This document shows positions 42,734 to 52,156 of a stretch of DNA of 64,000 nt, piece by piece. The stretch lies in assembly GCF_001610895.1 (NCBI RefSeq), contig NZ_CP011273.1, positions 1,426,001 to 1,490,000 on the forward strand, given 5' to 3'. Positions within the stretch are counted from its first letter, which is position 1. Every line of letters begins with the position of its first letter. The notes below the pieces were generated by a model that saw only the letters and a list, made by a program, of their open reading frames with translations, was not told the origin of the DNA and did not search any database. A program made the translations under genes and the position numbers. The stretch is from Planctomyces sp. SH-PL62. Lineage in GTDB: Bacteria > Planctomycetota > Planctomycetia > Isosphaerales > Isosphaeraceae.

Positions 42734-43747
42734 TTACAGCGGATCCACGTCGATCCAGGCCGCGAAGGAGGACTGGTCGACGTTTCGACCGCTCACCACG
42801 ACGACCAGATCGCCTCGCCCCCCCAGGTCGATCCCCCCGGTCAACAAGGGGAGCAGGGCGATGGCCCCGGAAGGCTCGGTGCGCAGGCCGTGGTGATCGT
42901 ACAGCCAGCGCATCGCCTGGCGGACCGCCTCGTCCGGGAACGCCAGCGATTGCGGGACGAGGCGCTGAAGGATCGGCCAGTTATGCTCGCCGACGTCGTA
43001 CGAAAGCAGTCCGTCGCAGATGCTGGCCGGGCGCTCGAGCCGGACCCGCTTCCCCTCCGCGAGCGAACGGCGGAAGTCGTCGGCCTGATCGGGCTCGACG
43101 CCGACGATTTGGGCGTCGGGGTAGGCGTCGGCGATCCCCAGGGCGTGCCCGGCCATCAGCCCGCCCCCGCTGACGGGGCAGAAGAAGTGGGAGAGTTCAC
43201 GCCCCTCACGCTTCAAGGAATGGACGATCTCCAGGGCTCCCACGCCGTTCCCTGCGATCACGTGGGGGTCGTCGTACGGAGACGCCTGGACGGCCCCCTC
43301 GACCTCGGAGATCTCGCGGGTCAGGCGATCCCGATCGCCCGTCAGGTGGTCGCGCGCGATGTCGTAGGTCCGGATCTCGGCCCCGAACGAGCGCGTGAGC
43401 TCGAATTTCACCCGGGGGGCGGTCTCCGGCATCACCACGATGACCTTTCGGCCGTAGCGCATCCCCGCGAAGGCGATCCCCGACGCGAAGTTGCCGGAGG
43501 AGTGGGCGGCGACGGGGCGATCTCCGAGTTCCTCCGCGTGGGCGTCCATCCAGTTCAACGCGCCCAGGAGCTTGAACGAGCCGCAGGGGGTCCAGCCGTA
43601 ATCCTTCAACCACACCCGGCGCGATTCCGGCAGCCCGAGCTTCCGTTCCAGGGCGTAAGAGCGGATCAGCGGGACCGGCGACAGATGCCGTCGGATGACC
43701 GTTTCCGCGGCGTGCAGGTCGGCGACGGTCGTCAGGCGAACGGGCAT
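42734..43747 (-). CDS. PLP-dependent threonine/serine dehydratase-like enzyme
   Basis: The 337-residue protein is a fold-type II PLP enzyme: PLP lysine Lys59 in PCGSFKLLGALNWM, SSGNFASGIAFAG as the asparagine loop, and the phosphate loop SGGGLMAGHALG. LSPVPLIRSYALERKLGLP near the start is the substrate-end motif. There is no ACT-type regulatory domain, so it resembles catabolic threonine dehydratase, serine racemase or related lyases. Which substrate it uses cannot be read. It is a single gene, with the convergent Tat gene downstream. Confidence 0.87.
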   Translation of the reverse strand: MPVRLTTVADLHAAETVIRRHLSPVPLIRSYALERKLGLPESRRVWLKDYGWTPCGSFKLLGALNWMDAHAEELGDRPVAAHSSGNFASGIAFAGMRYGRKVIVVMPETAPRVKFELTRSFGAEIRTYDIARDHLTGDRDRLTREISEVEGAVQASPYDDPHVIAGNGVGALEIVHSLKREGRELSHFFCPVSGGGLMAGHALGIADAYPDAQIVGVEPDQADDFRRSLAEGKRVRLERPASICDGLLSYDVGEHNWPILQRLVPQSLAFPDEAVRQAMRWLYDHHGLRTEPSGAIALLPLLTGGIDLGGRGDLVVVVSGRNVDQSSFAAWIDVDPL

Positions 43748-44172: not shown

Positions 44173-47061
44173 ATGGGCTCGATCGCTCCGACGACTCGCC
44201 GGCTGCTCTACCTCTCCTGGGCCCTGCTCGGGCCGTCGATGACGGGGGTCGGCCTCGCCGAGGACGCGACGCCGTTCCCGCACTTCAACGGCGATCACCT
44301 CTACGTCTCGGGGGTCCCCGACCGCTACGACCCGGTGCAGCGGACGATCCGGGATCTGGAGGCCCGGGCGCCGCAGAAGTACTACGTCGCCGTGGTCAAG
44401 TCGGCCGGGGAGGGCGACCGCGCCACTCGGACTTACGCCGAGCGGCTTCGCGACGAATGGCGCGAGCAGGCGGCGGCCCAGGGGCTTCCTCTGGACTTCG
44501 AACGCTCGCTGATCGTGGTGGCGGCGCTGGACAACCGCCAGGTCGTGACCCTGCCGGGGCCGACGCTCGTCGATCGATTCGGGCTGAGGGGTGAGACGAT
44601 CGACGCGCGGATCGTCCAACCGAAGTTCGTCCCGCTCGCTCGCCAGGGAGACTATCCGGGGGCGCTCGCCGCCCTCCTGACCGGCGTGGACGAGTTCGTC
44701 GCCGCGCGAGCGACCGCGGCTTCGCCGACGGCGATCCCCCCCGCCGTCGTCCCGCTCCGAAAGGAGGTCGCGACGACGACGGCCCCCGCCGCGCCCGTCC
44801 CGGCGAGCGCGCCGGCGGGGCGCGACGCGGCCTGGGCGGTCGTCGGCTCGATCGTCGCGATCGGCCTCATCGTCGCGGGTTTGGTCTGGCTGGGGAGGCG
44901 TCGGGCCAGGGGGGCGTTCCGCGCCAAGTTCAAGAATTACAAGGAGAAGGCCGTCGCGATGATGGATCGGCTCGACGGCCTCAAGGCCCGGATCAAGTCG
45001 CTCCCCGTCGAGGACCCGGACTTCACCGAGCCGATGACCGGCGACACGCTGGCCCTCTATGAGAAGGTGCAGGAAGACCTCCGCCGCCTCTGGGACCGCT
45101 GGCTGGAGGTGATGGACGTCGTCGATCAGGCGGAAAAACACGCCGCGCGGGGGTCGTCGGCGCTGGCCAAGGCCGACGGGCTGGTCTCCGATGGGAAGGT
45201 TTTCGAGGAAGTCGAGCGGGGCGCCCAGGAATGCGCCGGGGTGATGGACCGTCTCAACGCCGCCCACGAGGAAGCTCGCGCGGCGGTCCAGGCGGTCGCC
45301 GAGGCCCAGGTCCGCACCGAGGAGGGAGTGGCGACCGTCCGCGCCGCCGGCCTGCCGACAGCCCCATATCAGCCCGAGATCCAGCGGATCGCCGAGCAGT
45401 CCGCGCGGGCCGGCGTCATCCTCGTCCCCGACCCCCTGGGGGCCCGATCCATCCTCGACCAGGCCCGGGAAGCGGCCGAGGCGCTCGTCGGGCGAGCCGC
45501 CGACGTGAAGGCTCGTCTGGAGGACGGGAAGCAGGTCCAGGCGGGGATCGCCGGGCTCCGCGACGAGGTGGCCGAACATCGCCGCAAGGGCCTGGGGCTG
45601 GCCGAGGAAGGGGGCGATCCCGACCCGTCCACGGCCCAGGCCGAGCAGGCGCTGGCCCGGATGCAGGCGGCGCTCGAGGCCGGCGACCCGACCCTGGCGG
45701 CCACCGAACTGACGGCGGCGCGGGGGCTGTTCGACCAGGCGCGGGGCGTGCTCGACGCCGTGCTCAAGGCCAGGGCGGCCTGCGAGCGCGGGCTCCCCGA
45801 AACTCGCCGCGAGACCCAGCGGCTGCGCGAGGCGGTGAGCCAGTACGCGGCTTTCGAGCAGGAGCTTCGCCGCGACTTCGCCCCGGGTTCCTGGCAGGGC
45901 GTGGCGGGTCATCTCCCCCAGGCCCGCACGCTCCTGGAGACGTTCGATCGCAAGGCCGACGAGGTGGAGCAGGCCGCCGATCCCAAGGTCCAGAACTATC
46001 TCCTCGGCGCCCGCCTCCTGGCCCGGTTGAACCAGGAGCAGAAGGCCGTGTTCCAACTGATGAACGGCGTCGGCGAACAGCTCGCGGGACTCAAGGCGGT
46101 CCGCGAGGAGGCGAAGAACCTCGCCCAGGAGATCGAGGCGCGGGACCGGGAGGTCGGCCGGTTCTTCGCGCAGTACGACCACGTCGTCGGCTCGCAGGCG
46201 AGGGAGAGCCTGGCGCATGCCTCCCGCGCCAGGGAGGAGGCGATCCGGGCGACCTCGACGCACCAGCCGGATTGGCCCTCGGCCCGACAGGCCCTGGCCG
46301 AGGCCCGCGAGGAATATGGGATCGCCCGTTCCCAGGCGCAGTCCGACCTGGACGTCTACCAGGTCCTGACCAACGAGTACGACGAGGCGCGAAACCACGC
46401 CTCGCGGGTGGAGGCGTTCCTCGCCGGGCATGGCGAGGACCGGCCCGCCGCCAACCAGCACTTCCGTCGCGCCGAGGAGATTTTGAACCTCGTCGGCAGC
46501 GACAGCACCCGCGTGGGCAACGAATGGCCCAGGCTGCTGGACCAGGTCCGGGGCGCACGCCGCGACCTGGACTACTCCGAGCGGCTTGCGCAGGAGGACC
46601 TCCGCCTGGCGCGCCGGGCCGAGTCCGAGATCGCCGAGGCCGCACGGACGCTCCGCGAAGGCCGCACCTACCTCTCGATGGGGGTGGCGCTGGACACCTC
46701 GCCGGCCGAGGCGCTGCTGACCCGGGCCCAGGGGCTCTACCACTCCCAGAATTACGAGCAGGCGATCGAGGCGGCCGGGGCGTCGCTCCAGCAGGTCCGC
46801 CAGGCCCACCAGACGGCCGTGCAGCAGGCCTACGCGAGGCAGATGCAGGTCGAGGCCGAGCAGCGACGCCGGGCGGTGGCGTTGCAAAGTTTCGGCATGG
46901 GAGCTGCAGGAGGAGCGGCGGGGGCGTTCGTCGCGAACGCCGCCTCCGCCGGCGAGCCGCCGCGCCCGCTGGCGGCGGGGCGCGAGGCGGGAGGCGACGC
47001 CCCGCAGTCGGAGGCTTCCTCAAGCTCCTGGTCGACCGAAGCCAGCGAATCCTCCTGGTGA
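44173..47061 (+). CDS. TPM-domain, coiled-coil membrane protein of a PspA/AAA+ operon
   Basis: The 962-residue protein has a signal peptide (to about residue 30), a TPM domain at about 35-180 (YVSGVPDRYDPVQRTI, RSLIVVAALDNRQVVTLPG, FGLRGETIDA), an Ala/Pro linker, one membrane helix at about 218-240 (WAVVGSIVAIGLIVAGLVWLG), and then some 650 residues of Ala/Glu/Gln-rich coiled coil, ending with a Ser-rich SSSSW tail. The TPM domain would be outside and the coiled coil in the cytoplasm. It is the first of four genes that continue with a PspA homologue, an AAA+ ATPase and a small protein. ATG 44173 is picked for its signal peptide. Confidence 0.85.
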   Translation: MGSIAPTTRRLLYLSWALLGPSMTGVGLAEDATPFPHFNGDHLYVSGVPDRYDPVQRTIRDLEARAPQKYYVAVVKSAGEGDRATRTYAERLRDEWREQAAAQGLPLDFERSLIVVAALDNRQVVTLPGPTLVDRFGLRGETIDARIVQPKFVPLARQGDYPGALAALLTGVDEFVAARATAASPTAIPPAVVPLRKEVATTTAPAAPVPASAPAGRDAAWAVVGSIVAIGLIVAGLVWLGRRRARGAFRAKFKNYKEKAVAMMDRLDGLKARIKSLPVEDPDFTEPMTGDTLALYEKVQEDLRRLWDRWLEVMDVVDQAEKHAARGSSALAKADGLVSDGKVFEEVERGAQECAGVMDRLNAAHEEARAAVQAVAEAQVRTEEGVATVRAAGLPTAPYQPEIQRIAEQSARAGVILVPDPLGARSILDQAREAAEALVGRAADVKARLEDGKQVQAGIAGLRDEVAEHRRKGLGLAEEGGDPDPSTAQAEQALARMQAALEAGDPTLAATELTAARGLFDQARGVLDAVLKARAACERGLPETRRETQRLREAVSQYAAFEQELRRDFAPGSWQGVAGHLPQARTLLETFDRKADEVEQAADPKVQNYLLGARLLARLNQEQKAVFQLMNGVGEQLAGLKAVREEAKNLAQEIEARDREVGRFFAQYDHVVGSQARESLAHASRAREEAIRATSTHQPDWPSARQALAEAREEYGIARSQAQSDLDVYQVLTNEYDEARNHASRVEAFLAGHGEDRPAANQHFRRAEEILNLVGSDSTRVGNEWPRLLDQVRGARRDLDYSERLAQEDLRLARRAESEIAEAARTLREGRTYLSMGVALDTSPAEALLTRAQGLYHSQNYEQAIEAAGASLQQVRQAHQTAVQQAYARQMQVEAEQRRRAVALQSFGMGAAGGAAGAFVANAASAGEPPRPLAAGREAGGDAPQSEASSSSWSTEASESSW

Positions 47062-47175
47062 CCGCGCCCGCGGTCGAATCCGGCGGCGATCCGCCGAAGA
47101 ATCGAGACGCTCGACCGAAGAGGATGCGAGACGGACAGGTTCCCCACCACTCCCTGACGAAGCACGGGTGACGCC

Positions 47176-47943
47176 ATGATCCTCGGAAAGCTCTGGAACG
47201 CCATCGCCGCCCAGTTCAACAAGCTCGCCAACGCCGTCCGGGGCTACGACCCCATCGCCGAGATGCAGCTCGAATACGACCGCTCGGTGGAGCAGCTCAA
47301 GGAAGGTCGCGAGGGCCTGGCCCAGTACCGGGCGCTGGTGGAGCGGGTGCAGCGGCAGGTCGACAATCAGTCGAAGGTGGTCGCCACGCTGGAGGCCAAG
47401 GTCAAGGCGTTCCTCAACGCCGGCGACCGCGACGGGGCGGCGAAGTTCGCGCTCGACCTCCGACGCGCCAAGGAGGATATGGCCGAGAACGAGAAGCAGC
47501 TCAACCTCCACGAGCAGGCGTACCAGAACAATCTCCTGAAGATCAAACACGCGGTCGAGAAGCTGGAGTCGGTGAAGCACAAGATCACCAAGTATGACGC
47601 CGACCTCAAGATGAGCCGTGCCGAGGCCGAGCTGTCGCAGATCGCCACCCAGTTCAACTTCAACGTCACCACCGATTTCGGCCAGGCCGAGCAGATCATC
47701 CAGGACCAGATCGACAAGAACCGAGGCCGGGTCCGCGTGGCCGCCGACCTCTCGGGCGAGGGGGTGGAGGACATCAAGCGCGAGATGACGATCGAGAAGA
47801 CCCTGGCCGAGGACGCGCTCCGGGAGTTCGAGAAGGAGAAGGGCCTGGCGACCCCCGAGACCGTGGGCGCCGGCCCGGCCGACAAGCAGCTCGGCCCCGC
47901 GACCCGGACCAAGCAGCTCGAGCCGCTCCCCGACCTCCCCTGA
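47176..47943 (+). CDS. pspA: PspA/IM30-family membrane-stress protein
   Basis: The 255-residue protein is a long coiled coil with the PspA N-terminus (LGKLWNAIAAQFNKLANAV), which would fold as an amphipathic membrane-binding helix, and the family core from about residue 40 (LVERVQRQVDNQSKVVATLE) to 170. The C-terminal 50 residues are Pro-rich and acidic, longer than in E. coli PspA. ESCRT-III-like PspA proteins coat and stabilise the inner membrane under stress. It lies 114 bases after the TPM gene and 60 before the AAA+ gene, which fits a role as the coat that the ATPase remodels. Confidence 0.88.
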   Translation: MILGKLWNAIAAQFNKLANAVRGYDPIAEMQLEYDRSVEQLKEGREGLAQYRALVERVQRQVDNQSKVVATLEAKVKAFLNAGDRDGAAKFALDLRRAKEDMAENEKQLNLHEQAYQNNLLKIKHAVEKLESVKHKITKYDADLKMSRAEAELSQIATQFNFNVTTDFGQAEQIIQDQIDKNRGRVRVAADLSGEGVEDIKREMTIEKTLAEDALREFEKEKGLATPETVGAGPADKQLGPATRTKQLEPLPDLP

Positions 47944-48003
47944 TCCCGATCCCGGCGGCCGTCGCGAGGAGAGATCCAGGCTCCTTCATTGAGGCGTGAT
48001 TTC

Positions 48004-49809
48004 GTGAGCATCGACCCCTCCACCGTGGAGACCGTCGCCCCGGCCCTGCTCGACGGGAAGGCCGCGACGATCGTCCCGGCCTGGTTCCCCGGCTGGGCCC
48101 GCGAGTTCGCCGAGCAGTTCTACGCCGGGGCGAGCTGCCTGTTCGTCCTCCACGGCAACGTCCACGACCTCGTCCCGCAGTCGGGCGAGGCGCCGATCTC
48201 CTACGGGACCGTGGCCGACTTCCTGACGTCCCAGCTCTTCGGGAACTGGGACGTCGTCCTGCGGCACGACCTCAGCCACGGCCTCCAGGTCTTCGCCGGC
48301 AGCGACGGCGACCGGCTGCGGAAGATGGTCGGGCGGCTTTCCGAGCGGATCGGCGAGCCCAAATCCTGGCCCCGCGACCCGGACGCGATCCTGGACCTCG
48401 TCGATCGGCTGATCCAGTCCAACCTCATGGAGACCGACCCCGCCAAGCGGCTCAGCCTGGCGATCGTCTTCGACCACGCGCAGTATCTCGCGCCTTCGAG
48501 CGAGCTGGCCCAGCTCGCGGGGCCGTTGGGCTCACGGCTGGTGCGGCTCCTCTCGTGGGCGCAGAACCCGTACATCAAGCGGAACAACATGGCGTTCTGC
48601 CTGATGTCCGACCAGCTCGCCGAGGTGAACGAGCGGTTGGTGGGGAGCCCGCACGTCTCGGCGCTGAACGTGCCGATGCCCGACGTCGCCCAGCGGCGGG
48701 CCTTCGCCGAGTGGTTCGACGGCCGGGACGGCAAGCTCGGCAACCTCACCGACTTCACCCCCGCGCAGCTCGCCGACCTGACCAGCGGGCTGAACCTCGT
48801 CAGCCTGGAGCGGCTGCTCGTCCTGGCCGAGCAGGCCCACGCCAAGCTCGACGCCCAGAGCCTCAAGAAGCTCAAGAAGGGGCTCATCGAACGCCAGGCC
48901 CGCGGGCTCGTCGAGTTCGTCGAGCCCGCCCAGACGATGGACGACTTCGTCGGCAACGAGGGGGTCAAGGAGCGGCTCATCGAGGATGCGAAGCTGCTGG
49001 CCAAGGGCCGGCTCGACGCCGCACCGATGGGGTACCTGATCTGCGGCCCGGTGGGGACGGGGAAGACGTATCTCGCGGAGTGCTTCGCGGGCTCGGTCGG
49101 CGTCCCCTGCGTCAAGCTCCGCAACTTCCGGTCGAAGTACGTCGGCGAGACCGAGGGGAACCTCGAACAGCTCCTTTCGGTGCTCCGCGCCATGGGGCCG
49201 GTCGTCGTGGTGATCGACGAGGCCGACGCGGCGCTCGGAACCCGGGAGGGAGGGGGGGACTCCGGCACGTCGAGCCGGGTCTTCTCGATGATCGCCGCCC
49301 AGATGGGCGACACCCGCTATCGCGGCAAGCTCATCTGGATGCTGCTGACCAGCCGGCCCGACCTCCTGCCGATCGACCTGAAACGCCAGGGGAGGGCGGA
49401 GGTCCACCTGCCGCTGTTCAACCCCCCCGACGACGACGAGGTCCGCGCGATGTTCCTCGCGATGGCCCGCAAGAACAAGTTCCGCCTCGAGCCCTCGCTG
49501 CTCCCCGAGGGGCTGGCGAAACGCGGGTACAGCGGGGCCGACATCGAGAGCATCGTCCTGTCGGCCAAGCGGCTCGCGCTGACCCAGAATCGCGAGCAGG
49601 CGACCGCCGAGGACCTGACGCACGCGCTCGACGACTTCGTCCCCTCGGCCCAGGGGCTGGAGAAGGAGAAGCAGGAGCTGGCCGCGGTCCTCGAATGCAC
49701 CTCCAGGTCGTTCCTCCCGGACGAGTGGCGGGAGCGACTCAAGCAGCCCGACGCCCGAGCCAAACTCCAGGAACGGATGGCGGCCATCCGGCGCGTCATC
49801 GAAGAATAA
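48004..49809 (+). CDS. AAA+ ATPase with degenerate N-terminal ATPase-like domain
   Basis: The 601-residue protein has a C-terminal classical AAA+ domain with Walker A GPVGTGKT (about residues 348-355) and Walker B VVVVIDEAD (about 400-408), a sensor-like LTSRPDLLPIDLKRQGRAE with arginine-finger-type RQGR, and a lid domain. The N-terminal 290 residues have HGNVHDLV and a Walker-B-like IVFDHAQYLAP but no Walker A, so they look like a dead AAA domain, as in Ycf46-like proteins. GTG 48004 is chosen for GAGG nine bases before; TTG 47989 in frame is possible. Next to PspA, it may disassemble or load the PspA coat. Confidence 0.88.
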   Translation: MSIDPSTVETVAPALLDGKAATIVPAWFPGWAREFAEQFYAGASCLFVLHGNVHDLVPQSGEAPISYGTVADFLTSQLFGNWDVVLRHDLSHGLQVFAGSDGDRLRKMVGRLSERIGEPKSWPRDPDAILDLVDRLIQSNLMETDPAKRLSLAIVFDHAQYLAPSSELAQLAGPLGSRLVRLLSWAQNPYIKRNNMAFCLMSDQLAEVNERLVGSPHVSALNVPMPDVAQRRAFAEWFDGRDGKLGNLTDFTPAQLADLTSGLNLVSLERLLVLAEQAHAKLDAQSLKKLKKGLIERQARGLVEFVEPAQTMDDFVGNEGVKERLIEDAKLLAKGRLDAAPMGYLICGPVGTGKTYLAECFAGSVGVPCVKLRNFRSKYVGETEGNLEQLLSVLRAMGPVVVVIDEADAALGTREGGGDSGTSSRVFSMIAAQMGDTRYRGKLIWMLLTSRPDLLPIDLKRQGRAEVHLPLFNPPDDDEVRAMFLAMARKNKFRLEPSLLPEGLAKRGYSGADIESIVLSAKRLALTQNREQATAEDLTHALDDFVPSAQGLEKEKQELAAVLECTSRSFLPDEWRERLKQPDARAKLQERMAAIRRVIEE

Positions 49810-49828
49810 CCGAACGGAGAGAGACGTC

Positions 49829-50134
49829 ATGTCGCACGCGAAGAAGCATCGCACCCCCTGGCTCGACGACGAGGGCGATTCGCCGATGGTCCACGAGTAC
49901 GCCGCCCAGCTCGGCGGCTTCATGGACGCCATGGCCGACGGCAAGGTCGACAAGCACGAGCTCGAAGCCCAGGAGGCCCGCGTCGTCGCCCTCATGAAGG
50001 CGATCGAGCCCGAGCTCGACCCCGCGCTGCACGAGCAGGTCACGCGCCTGCTCTGCGAGCTTTCCGCCTATAACATCATGCACACCTTCCACAAGCTGCT
50101 CGAAGCGACTCCCAAGACGAAGTTCCGGGGCTGA
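49829..50134 (+). CDS. Small acidic protein, last gene of the PspA/AAA+ operon
   Basis: The 101-residue product is soluble and helical, with a short polar start (KKHRTPWLDDEGDSPMV) and an amphipathic pair of helices ending in MHTFHKLLEATPKTKF. It has no membrane segment or known motif. GGAGAGA lies eight bases before ATG 49829. It follows the AAA+ gene by 19 bases, so it is part of the same transcript; an adaptor or regulator of the ATPase is a fair guess but nothing in the sequence proves it. Confidence 0.72.
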   Translation: MSHAKKHRTPWLDDEGDSPMVHEYAAQLGGFMDAMADGKVDKHELEAQEARVVALMKAIEPELDPALHEQVTRLLCELSAYNIMHTFHKLLEATPKTKFRG

Positions 50135-50182: not shown

Positions 50183-52156
50183 TCACTCCCAGCGCTCGTC
50201 GAAGAACCCTTCCGCTACCACCTCCTCCTGGGGGCCGATGCGGAAGACGGCGAAATCGGCGAGATGCGGGAAGAGCAGGGCGTTCGTCCCCCGGAACTCG
50301 CGGTCTCCGAAGGTGTGGCCGCCGTTGACGACCACGTAACGGAGCGGGTTGCGGGGATTGGCCTGGATCAGGACGGGGGCGTGGTCGGCGGCGGGGTGGG
50401 ACTCGCCCCGGAGCTTCAACTCCGTCGCGTTCCAGGAGAGGCCGATCTCGGGCGCGAGGGCCTTGATCCAGGCGTTGGACCCGACATCGCCGAACAGGAT
50501 CACGTTGTGGGTCTTGAAGTCCCCCTCGGTGACGTCCACGTCATCCTTGATGGGCAAGGCCCCGCGCATCCAGCGCCCCCACTCCTCGGCGAACCGCGAG
50601 AGCCGGGCCTCGGCCCAGGCGTGGACCAGGGCGTTTGCGGGCTCGCCGGTCCCCCGAACGCAGAGAAACGGCCCGGTGAAGGCGTCGTCGATCGGCCCCT
50701 GGACGCCGGGGTGCTTCTCGCGGCCTGCGTTCGCCTCGATTGCGCCCGCCTGCGCGGCGTCGAGCGGCTCCCAGCCGTCGGCCCCCTTGCGGAACAGGAC
50801 GTCGGGGGACTCGCCGGCCGCATCCCGGAGCGGGAAATCCCGACCGTCCAGGCTTATCGTCGCGGCGGCGCGACGAGCCGCGGCGAGGACGACGACGTTC
50901 GCCGTCCGCACGGTCGCCCGATCGTCGATCAGGTCCGCGTCGAGCGTCGCGCGGGCGTAATGCTCGCCCAGCCGACGGATCTTGAGCCATCCGACCTGGG
51001 GATACTTGAGGGTGTAGGTGACGAACCGAATCCGGGAGGGGAGCGGGTCGACGCCCTTCGCGGCCCGATCGTCATGGAACGCCTTGAGGAGCTTCGCGCT
51101 CTCCTTGTCGACGGCGTGGCCCATCCCCTTTCCGACGATCCGCCGGAAGTCGACCCCCTCGGCGGTCGTCACCAAACCTTCCGTCTTCATGTCGATCCCC
51201 TGGGCCTGGAGGGCTTCGAGGATGTTCAGCGACGCCTGCGCCTGGGGATCGATCTCACCGCCATAGCCGGCGATCGGGACGTTGAAGGCGTTGCGGGCGT
51301 AATCGACCGCGTCGTAGATCGTCAGGAGCTTGCGCGTCGCCTCGGAGGGATCGCCGAGCCTGGCGTAGCGGATCGTCTCGGTGAAGCCCGCGCCCGCTTC
51401 CACGGAGGACCAGCGGCCGGGATGGTGGAGCCCCAGGTGCCAGGCGCCCGCGCCTCCCATGGAGAACCCCCGGAGGACGACCCGGCGGTCGTCGACCCGG
51501 TAGTTCCGGCGGACCGCGTCGACGGCCTCGAAGACGTCGGCCTCGCCGGCCCAGCGATACGCGTTGTTGCCGCGACCGTAGACGTGGAGGACGAGCCCGG
51601 CCTGGTCGGCCGGGGCGGGCTTGCCGTCGTGGGCGTCGAAGAACCGAACCTCGCTGAGCCGGGCGTCGCGCCCGTGGAGCACCACGTCCAGCCGGAACGG
51701 CCCCTCGCCGGCCGTCTTCGGCGGGACGATGACCGCATAGGGCTGCACCGAGCCGTCGACCCGCGACCGATAGCCCCGGACCACGCCCCCCTCTCCGTCG
51801 GACCAGGGGACCCGCCCCGCGCCGAGCGCCTCGGCCCGCTCGAGGCCCCGGCCGAGGACCTTCAGGGCGCGGGCCACGTCGCGAGCGTCGAAAAAGTCGT
51901 CGAACCGCAGCGCCCAGTCCGCCGCCTTGTGGGCGATCACGACGTCGGCCAGGGCGTCGTCCCCTCGCTCGCCATTTCGACCCGCGAGACCTTCCACGGC
52001 CCGACCCAGCTCCGCGGTCTTGTCCGCGATCGCCGCGCGCTCCGCCGCGGTCGGCCGATACGGACCCCCTTGTTTCGGAGTCTGCCAGGCCGAGGCCGTC
52101 CCCGAAAGAATCAGGATCGACGTCCAGACCGCCACGATCTCCGTCCGTCTCATCAC
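50183..52156 (-). CDS. Secreted alpha/beta-hydrolase (esterase/PHB-depolymerase-like)
   Basis: The 657-residue product has a signal peptide (to about residue 24), a helical N-terminal part, and an alpha/beta-hydrolase core in which the nucleophile serine lies in GFSMGGAGAWHLGLHHPG, following a RDARLSEVRFFDAHDG and YGRGNNAYRWAGEADVFEA block. A final beta-rich domain of about 280 residues (VILFGDVGSNAWIKALAPEI near 590) completes it. It is larger than simple esterases and fits planctomycete prolyl-oligopeptidase-like secreted hydrolases. Its substrate, probably an ester or polymer, is unknown. The second Met of MM is also possible as start. Confidence 0.82.
   Translation of the reverse strand: MMRRTEIVAVWTSILILSGTASAWQTPKQGGPYRPTAAERAAIADKTAELGRAVEGLAGRNGERGDDALADVVIAHKAADWALRFDDFFDARDVARALKVLGRGLERAEALGAGRVPWSDGEGGVVRGYRSRVDGSVQPYAVIVPPKTAGEGPFRLDVVLHGRDARLSEVRFFDAHDGKPAPADQAGLVLHVYGRGNNAYRWAGEADVFEAVDAVRRNYRVDDRRVVLRGFSMGGAGAWHLGLHHPGRWSSVEAGAGFTETIRYARLGDPSEATRKLLTIYDAVDYARNAFNVPIAGYGGEIDPQAQASLNILEALQAQGIDMKTEGLVTTAEGVDFRRIVGKGMGHAVDKESAKLLKAFHDDRAAKGVDPLPSRIRFVTYTLKYPQVGWLKIRRLGEHYARATLDADLIDDRATVRTANVVVLAAARRAAATISLDGRDFPLRDAAGESPDVLFRKGADGWEPLDAAQAGAIEANAGREKHPGVQGPIDDAFTGPFLCVRGTGEPANALVHAWAEARLSRFAEEWGRWMRGALPIKDDVDVTEGDFKTHNVILFGDVGSNAWIKALAPEIGLSWNATELKLRGESHPAADHAPVLIQANPRNPLRYVVVNGGHTFGDREFRGTNALLFPHLADFAVFRIGPQEEVVAEGFFDERWE

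Follow-up and report, generated by a model that had tools for sequence, protein, structure and literature searches.

We analysed a window of 64,000 nucleotides from Planctomyces sp. SH-PL62 (contig NZ_CP011273.1, positions 1,426,001 to 1,490,000). In this window, open reading frame calls place four plus-strand genes at 44173-50134, which encode a TPM-domain protein, a PspA, an AAA+ ATPase and a small protein that we call P4. PspA is a coat protein of the ESCRT-III superfamily, and Planctomycetota are known for elaborate inner membranes. A first interpretation made from the letters alone (the sequence-only reading) described four genes on one strand with gaps of 114, 60 and 19 bases, and the coordinates of the reading frames bear this out. 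The order of the four genes is not due to chance because whole-protein homologues retain it in other genomes. The genes and their features, in window positions, are as follows.

44173..47061, plus strand: putative membrane anchor or sensor with TPM domain, transmembrane helix and EzrA-like coiled coil; 962 aa, ATG start
44335..44694, plus strand: TPM domain, residues 55-174, predicted to lie outside the cytoplasm
44836..44892, plus strand: transmembrane helix predicted from hydropathy, residues 222-240
45031..46164, plus strand: EzrA-like coiled-coil stretch, residues 287-664, below the Pfam cut-off
47176..47943, plus strand: PspA/IM30 protein of the divergent AAA-associated clade; 255 aa, ATG start
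47884..47898, plus strand: first copy of the tail motif, KQLGP, residues 237-241, a candidate docking tag for the AAA
47911..47925, plus strand: second copy of the tail motif, KQLEP, residues 246-250, which is what remains in L033, L034 and L244
48004..49809, plus strand: tandem AAA+ ATPase; 601 aa, GTG start, with an in-frame TTG at 47989
48085..48903, plus strand: AAA module 1, about residues 28-300, with an HGNxxD-type sequence in place of Walker A
49045..49068, plus strand: Walker A of module 2, GPVGTGKT, residues 348-355
49135..49146, plus strand: pore-loop-like KYVG, residues 378-381, its role assigned by analogy
49204..49227, plus strand: Walker B of module 2, VVVIDEAD, residues 401-408
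49829..50134, plus strand: P4, helical protein, proposed cofactor of AAA and PspA; 101 aa, ATG start

The third gene encodes a tandem classical AAA+ ATPase of the p97/Rix7-like kind with a dead module 1 and a live module 2. The protein matches PF00004 at 82.4 bits (cut-off 21.2 bits). Walker A and Walker B of module 2 are intact in 80/80 named homologues and a module 1 Walker A is found in 0/80, which agrees with the intact second and dead N-terminal ATPase domains first described from the letters; an alignment of 36 members (A6) holds exactly one Walker A in each. Among the same 80 homologues, a loose pore-loop-like pattern is present in 77 and a KRxGR pattern in 79. A predicted model of the protein (predicted local distance difference test, pLDDT, 87) aligned with Rix7 over both modules (Z 23.6, 463 residues, root-mean-square deviation, rmsd, 6.2), and p97 and Pex1/Pex6 aligned likewise. 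Module 2 matched Vps4 with Z 22.5 over 250 residues (rmsd 3.0). However, p97 D2, Vps4, spastin, FIGL1 and FtsH all lie within about one Z unit for this module. Because these folds score alike, fold alone does not make the protein a Vps4, and we rejected an identification by fold. The similar fit to p97 D2, Vps4, spastin and FtsH also answers a doubt raised by the sequence-only reading, namely that the protein might align with an unrelated family. The model and Cdc48-type alignments give two AAA modules where canonical Vps4 has one, no MIT domain was present among the Pfam matches listed (the N-terminal part is the degenerate AAA module), and the CdvC model NF041006 scored 49.9 bits against 650 bits. 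Models of the anti-phage protein IetA matched the AAA (best 1.7e-15) over module 2 only; because any classical AAA would match there, this was set aside and a role in anti-phage defence was rejected. The source genome contains no second tandem AAA and only two FtsH-range matches to module 2.

To follow the genes among relatives we used a set of 59 genomes, consisting of the source genome, five others of the genus and further members of the family and class. Window-type PspA is present in 15 of the 59 (a 16th genome, G033, has a distant copy at 35% identity), and the TPM/transmembrane part of the first protein is matched in the same 15. The match in G009 covers only the part next to the transmembrane helix, and that in G011 is on another contig, but there the end of the anchor gene sits at a contig edge before PspA. 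Fourteen of the 15 genomes have the full AAA (missing in G017) and 13 have P4 (absent from G010 and G036). Eight loci including the window keep the full order TPM-PspA-AAA-P4. In G009, G011 and G032 the order agrees as far as the contig breaks allow, and it is rearranged in G010, G016, G017 and G036, with the genes of G016 spread over three contigs.

Results from 392 genomes of the phylum gave a similar association. Strong P4 matches (E < 1e-25) occurred in 12 genomes and weak ones near 1e-5 in four, all of one genus. A profile of the AAA N-terminal part matched 66 of the 392, and the 12 with matches below 1e-90 are exactly the 12 strong-P4 genomes. The AAA adjoins P4 in all 12; PspA is directly upstream in ten, about 4 kb upstream in G312 and without a match in G117. 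The other 54 genomes carry a remoter tandem AAA (type II), no strong P4 and sometimes an adjacent divergent PspA. A third and still remoter tandem AAA (27-29% identity) was seen at the planctomycete loci L145, L146 and L148, with no PspA match alongside.

A scan of named genomes yielded 528 relatives, of which the best 80 were analysed as loci. By their titles these belong to Planctomycetota (56), Myxococcota (8), Acidobacteriota (6), Gemmatimonadota (5), Deltaproteobacteria (2) and Gammaproteobacteria (1), with two unassigned. PspA is present in 69 of these loci and P4 in 64, no more than 418 bp downstream of the AAA (Planctomycetota 50, Acidobacteriota 6, Myxococcota 6, unassigned 2); no P4 was found in the Gemmatimonadota, Deltaproteobacteria or Gammaproteobacteria loci among the 80. 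PspA, AAA and P4 are thus a core that extends to Acidobacteriota and Myxococcota.

The PspA of the window is a member of PspA_IM30 (PF04012; residues 1-206, 37.6 bits, cut-off 33.9 bits) and the only PspA by PF04012 in the source genome. Past the helical core, the tails of AAA-linked PspAs are variable except for a short terminal tag, K-x-(L/M)-G-P; candidate tag-bearing tails are of the KQLGPATRTKQLEPLPDLP type, and in the window protein the tag is duplicated (KQLGP and KQLEP). We scored a strict motif, K-x-(L/M)-G-P, and a loose one, [KR]-x-[LIM]-G. Of 69 type I loci, 68 have the loose motif, where shuffled tails would give 4.6; the exception is L244, which retains KALEP. The loose form was nevertheless rejected as a marker of AAA-linked PspAs, and only the strict one used as a discriminator, because the loose form also matches classical LKRELG tails. 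The phylum set (set A) held 135 PspA rows, made up of 110 (two open-ended, dropped) and 25 (one open-ended, one in an AAA genome). In this set the strict motif is present in 26 of 35 AAA-linked PspAs, in 8 of 17 divergent PspAs whose genome holds the AAA elsewhere or on another contig, in none of ten classical PspAs of AAA-bearing genomes, and in one of 69 complete PspAs from genomes without the AAA. Outside Planctomycetota (23 genomes of other phyla, one unassigned) it was found in 15 of 15 PspAs on the contig of the AAA, and it was not seen in the printed tails of the 21 classical PspAs from the same genomes.

In 68 aligned type I tails, the entropy is 0.11 bits at the lysine, 0.52 at the hydrophobic position and 0.00 at the glycine, and 1.4-3.2 bits at the nine positions immediately preceding the motif. 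Type I tails show further conservation at positions -10 and -8 (0.19 and 0.30 bits; the end of the PET element). The corresponding values for 24 type II tails are 0.41, 1.16 and 0.00 bits versus 2.2-2.9 bits. Cases of loss were also seen: G017, where the AAA is absent, has a PspA tail without the motif, and in G016, where the AAA is on a separate contig, the tail is cut. Second, divergent PspAs in G011 (L037 6971-7714) and G028 (L038 8137-8829) lie next to a binding-protein/OmpA gene with no AAA match nearby, and both lack KxLGP. We propose, by analogy with the MIM motifs that dock Vps4, that the tag may dock the AAA. The Vps4 analogy of the sequence-only reading thereby gains a concrete candidate. 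Classical PspAs of Gemmatimonadota (L332, L333, L334, L336) have K-x-L-G-x-G-like ends close to the AAA-linked motif, and perhaps both PspAs serve the same AAA in that group.

P4 was first described as acidic, and a count by eye agrees (17 D/E versus 12 K/R). No Pfam match fell below E 0.0069 in any of 22 members and no NCBIfam match was better than 0.019. An AlphaFold model has three helices, and in Foldseek this model, with a pLDDT of only 74, gave two matches, neither significant, and none on repetition, a result compatible with a new as well as with a known fold. P4 persists with PspA after loss of the AAA (G017) and with the AAA after loss of PspA (G117), as would fit a cofactor that touches both. 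An apparent fusion of AAA and P4 in L314, where both matches lie in one frame, was rejected because a run of N separates the two matches, which marks an assembly gap. Elsewhere, a lone P4 homologue (G024:C2:4229022-4229300, E 2.5e-36) is found in a genome that is 99% complete. Weak P4-like stretches (E about 1e-5 to 1e-4), which cover positions 30-76 of the profile, sit in frames of 190-230 aa in four genomes of one genus (L081-L084, L097); at L097, the sole locus read, no AAA is near.

The first gene encodes a protein with one strong transmembrane segment by hydropathy (residues 222-240), as the sequence-only reading had stated; its signal peptide is a judgement by eye. That reading had also assigned a TPM domain and a long coiled coil. 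In the window protein the TPM match is below threshold (18.5 bits, Pfam cut-off 22.1 bits), but TPM is recognised in nine of ten anchor homologues at E <= 0.01, with a best value of 1.4e-7, which supports the domain. The description of the coiled coil is amended in that it resembles EzrA (PF06160), with 35 bits against a cut-off of 39.6 in the window protein and matches in seven of ten homologues (best 2.2e-10). The C-terminus (window 47032-47058) is conserved, rich in Ser and closed by a W; W953 is invariant and W962 nearly so. Judged from this conservation, the end of the anchor is possibly another short binding motif. An anchor gene before PspA in G009 (L031 7875-10283) retains the transmembrane helix and coiled coil and has no TPM domain, and the outside domain can therefore be lost.

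The TPM anchor is a lineage-specific addition outside the core. It is present in five of the 80 best loci, each of them without a match to the transporter-like cassette described below, and so the sequence-only reading, which made the TPM protein an integral member of the operon, holds in this respect only in part: within the genus and part of the family the four genes remain a unit, but the TPM gene does not belong to the wider set. The cassette consists of the ABC ATPase, permease and PBPB-OmpA protein found in longer operons by Ravi et al. (2024, mSystems, PMC11237479). A binding-protein/OmpA gene occurs in 53 of the 80 best loci, in 44 together with the permease. Pfam identified the cassette at three loci (L037, L089, L094), in agreement with the published description. 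Neither cassette nor TPM was found in the DNA examined at 22 of the 80. None of the cassette proteins is among the genes flanking the window set. Those flanking genes, both on the minus strand and assigned by eye, encode a threonine dehydratase-like enzyme (42734-43747) and an esterase-like protein (50183-52156), and two of the five congeneric loci (L023, L024) have homologues of the latter close to the set.

Together, these data suggest that the operon encodes an ATP-driven machine that remodels a PspA membrane coat in the manner of ESCRT-III and Vps4, and we put the probability of this at roughly 0.55. A Vps4-like division of labour is the best explanation because in at least three phyla PspA is linked to a p97-like motor with a live second ring, and because PspA bears the tail tag. 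In such a machine, where each step of binding and activity is our proposal, PspA would polymerise at the inner face of the cytoplasmic membrane, and the TPM protein, with its transmembrane helix and coiled coil, would anchor it and couple the coat to the space outside. The AAA+ protein would form a stacked double ring, presumably hexameric, with the dead module 1 as scaffold and docking site. Recruited by K-x-(L/M)-G-P at the flexible end of the PspA tail, the active module 2 would thread PspA subunits through its pore, and the coat would be thinned, disassembled or recycled. P4, small and helical, may serve PspA and the AAA as a cofactor, with a role like that of Vta1 for Vps4. A further-reaching version is more tentative and in our judgement somewhat doubtful, namely that several phyla possess a true ESCRT-III/Vps4 counterpart with its own code, in which the tag would be read by the dead docking ring, P4 would act as a new cofactor and the membrane inputs, either the TPM anchor with its EzrA-like part or a binding-protein/OmpA transporter, would be interchangeable.

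Several observations weigh against a remodelling machine. The strict motif is missing from nine of the 35 linked PspAs of set A; L033, L034 and L244 hold only a KxLEP-type form; and PspAs of G033 (98% complete) and G183 (82%) bear the motif with no AAA match in the genome. The loose pattern also fits classical tails (LKRELG in 11/25, and 8/21 classical PspAs of other phyla), and classical PspAs of Gemmatimonadota bear KxLG with no P. AAA-associated PspAs are largely one divergent clade, and therefore motif and AAA are not evolutionarily independent; the distances of AAA, PspA and P4 correlate (r 0.76-0.85, 57 loci), which favours the machine, but with no control for the species tree. P4 occurs alone in G024, where window-type PspA and the tandem AAA were not found, G117 has AAA and P4 with no PspA match, and 13 of the 80 best loci show no P4 match although they offer 500 bp or more of room for it. 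The models are of single proteins (AAA and P4), and we infer both the contact with PspA and the activity. Lastly, one PspA has a measured ATPase activity of its own (PMC11746142), and therefore a motor is not always required.

Part of the same evidence would suit a different role, in which PspA is only a recruitment platform and the AAA+ protein, brought to stressed membrane, chaperones membrane complexes such as the TPM anchor or, elsewhere, transporter parts. The membrane partner does vary (TPM in 5/80 and cassette in 53/80 of the best loci) with AAA and PspA constant, and chaperone-like roles have been proposed for the AAA+, TPM and band-7 partners of PspA in PMC11237479. However, PspA and AAA persist in most of the 22 loci that have neither partner, and the conserved tag sits on PspA, although a tag for recruitment would look identical. 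We consider this role unlikely. It is less probable still that PspA controls the AAA in the way in which it inhibits PspF in E. coli, with stress drawing PspA off and freeing the ATPase. Inhibition of PspF by PspA is established (cited in PMC8281802 and PMC11746142), and the tail motif and co-occurrence are as compatible with inhibition as with recruitment of a substrate. By contrast, the AAA is tandem and p97-like, whereas PspF is an NtrC-type activator, and Pfam, NCBIfam and structure comparison gave no match to a DNA-binding domain in the AAA; in E. coli the part that binds PspF is the N-terminal coiled coil, to judge by the title of a cited paper (PspA1-144), and not the tail. We give little credence to a shared envelope-stress regulon in which the four proteins are only co-expressed, since genome-level co-occurrence survives scattering of the genes (G016) and AAA, PspA and P4 remain together over at least three phyla, even though presence is patchy (15/59 relatives), operons are broken in G010, G016, G017 and G036, and contact among the proteins is conjectural.

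Links of PspA with AAA+ and with TPM-type proteins were said in the sequence-only reading to be generally known, and both pairs are indeed in print (PMC11237479). Ravi et al. (2024) describe a PspA whose neighbour carries two AAA domains, of which the N-terminal one is inactive, and propose a link to ESCRT-III/Vps4. The window set has the same arrangement, and therefore the pair itself is not new; relatives of the set also share the cassette. The passages seen of that paper do not mention P4, the tail motif or a TPM protein in the operon of this AAA; its supplements, in which more on the tandem AAA is announced and P4 or the motif may be noted, were outside the reach of our literature search, in which no paper on P4 or the tail motif surfaced. 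Within the literature found, we did not meet P4, the tail motif and its distribution, the joining of TPM to the AAA set, or the exchange of TPM and cassette.

The anchor has its nearest counterpart in pspA-ydjGHI of B. subtilis, where, in the passages on it in PMC8581546 and PMC11237479, YdjH, a TPM protein of the membrane that has a coiled-coil or low-complexity part, is encoded beside PspA. The window has the same pairing, with an EzrA-like coiled coil in its TPM protein. Two-hybrid tests show YdjH binding to PspA, and the membrane foci of PspA depend on YdjH (PMC8581546), so an anchoring role has experimental precedent. As described there, the four genes of that operon include no AAA+ or P4, and the window's four genes do not include YdjG or the SPFH protein YdjI. 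The likeness to EzrA is a match of the coiled-coil stretch below the cut-off; in the anchor this stretch instead follows an outside TPM domain and one transmembrane helix, and a function in division is not implied. With p97/Cdc48, Rix7 and Pex1/Pex6 the ATPase shares two stacked AAA modules that both align in the model. It differs from them in sequence (about 17-21% identity), in having no Walker A in module 1 and no Cdc48-type N domain, and in lying beside PspA.

With the archaeal and eukaryotic ESCRT-III/Vps4 systems, as presented in PMC10936438 and PMC8281802, the window set shares an ESCRT-III-superfamily protein encoded next to a classical AAA+ protein. The KxLGP motif in the tails of AAA-linked PspAs is conserved in sequence, and we propose it as a candidate counterpart of the short recruitment motif in ESCRT-III tails. 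Vps4, in these accounts, consists of an MIT domain and one AAA module, whereas the window protein has a dead AAA module at its N-terminus. According to a 2024 survey (PMC10936438), only archaea and eukaryotes have systems that combine vps4 with ESCRT-III, and Liu et al. (2021, PMC8281802) consider it unclear whether PspF acts like Vps4 or an equivalent ATPase assists Vipp1. The three-protein set of Planctomycetota, Acidobacteriota and Myxococcota bears on the question of a dedicated Vps4-like motor in bacteria, and, since the set is defined and its five-residue tail tag can be mutated, that question becomes directly testable.

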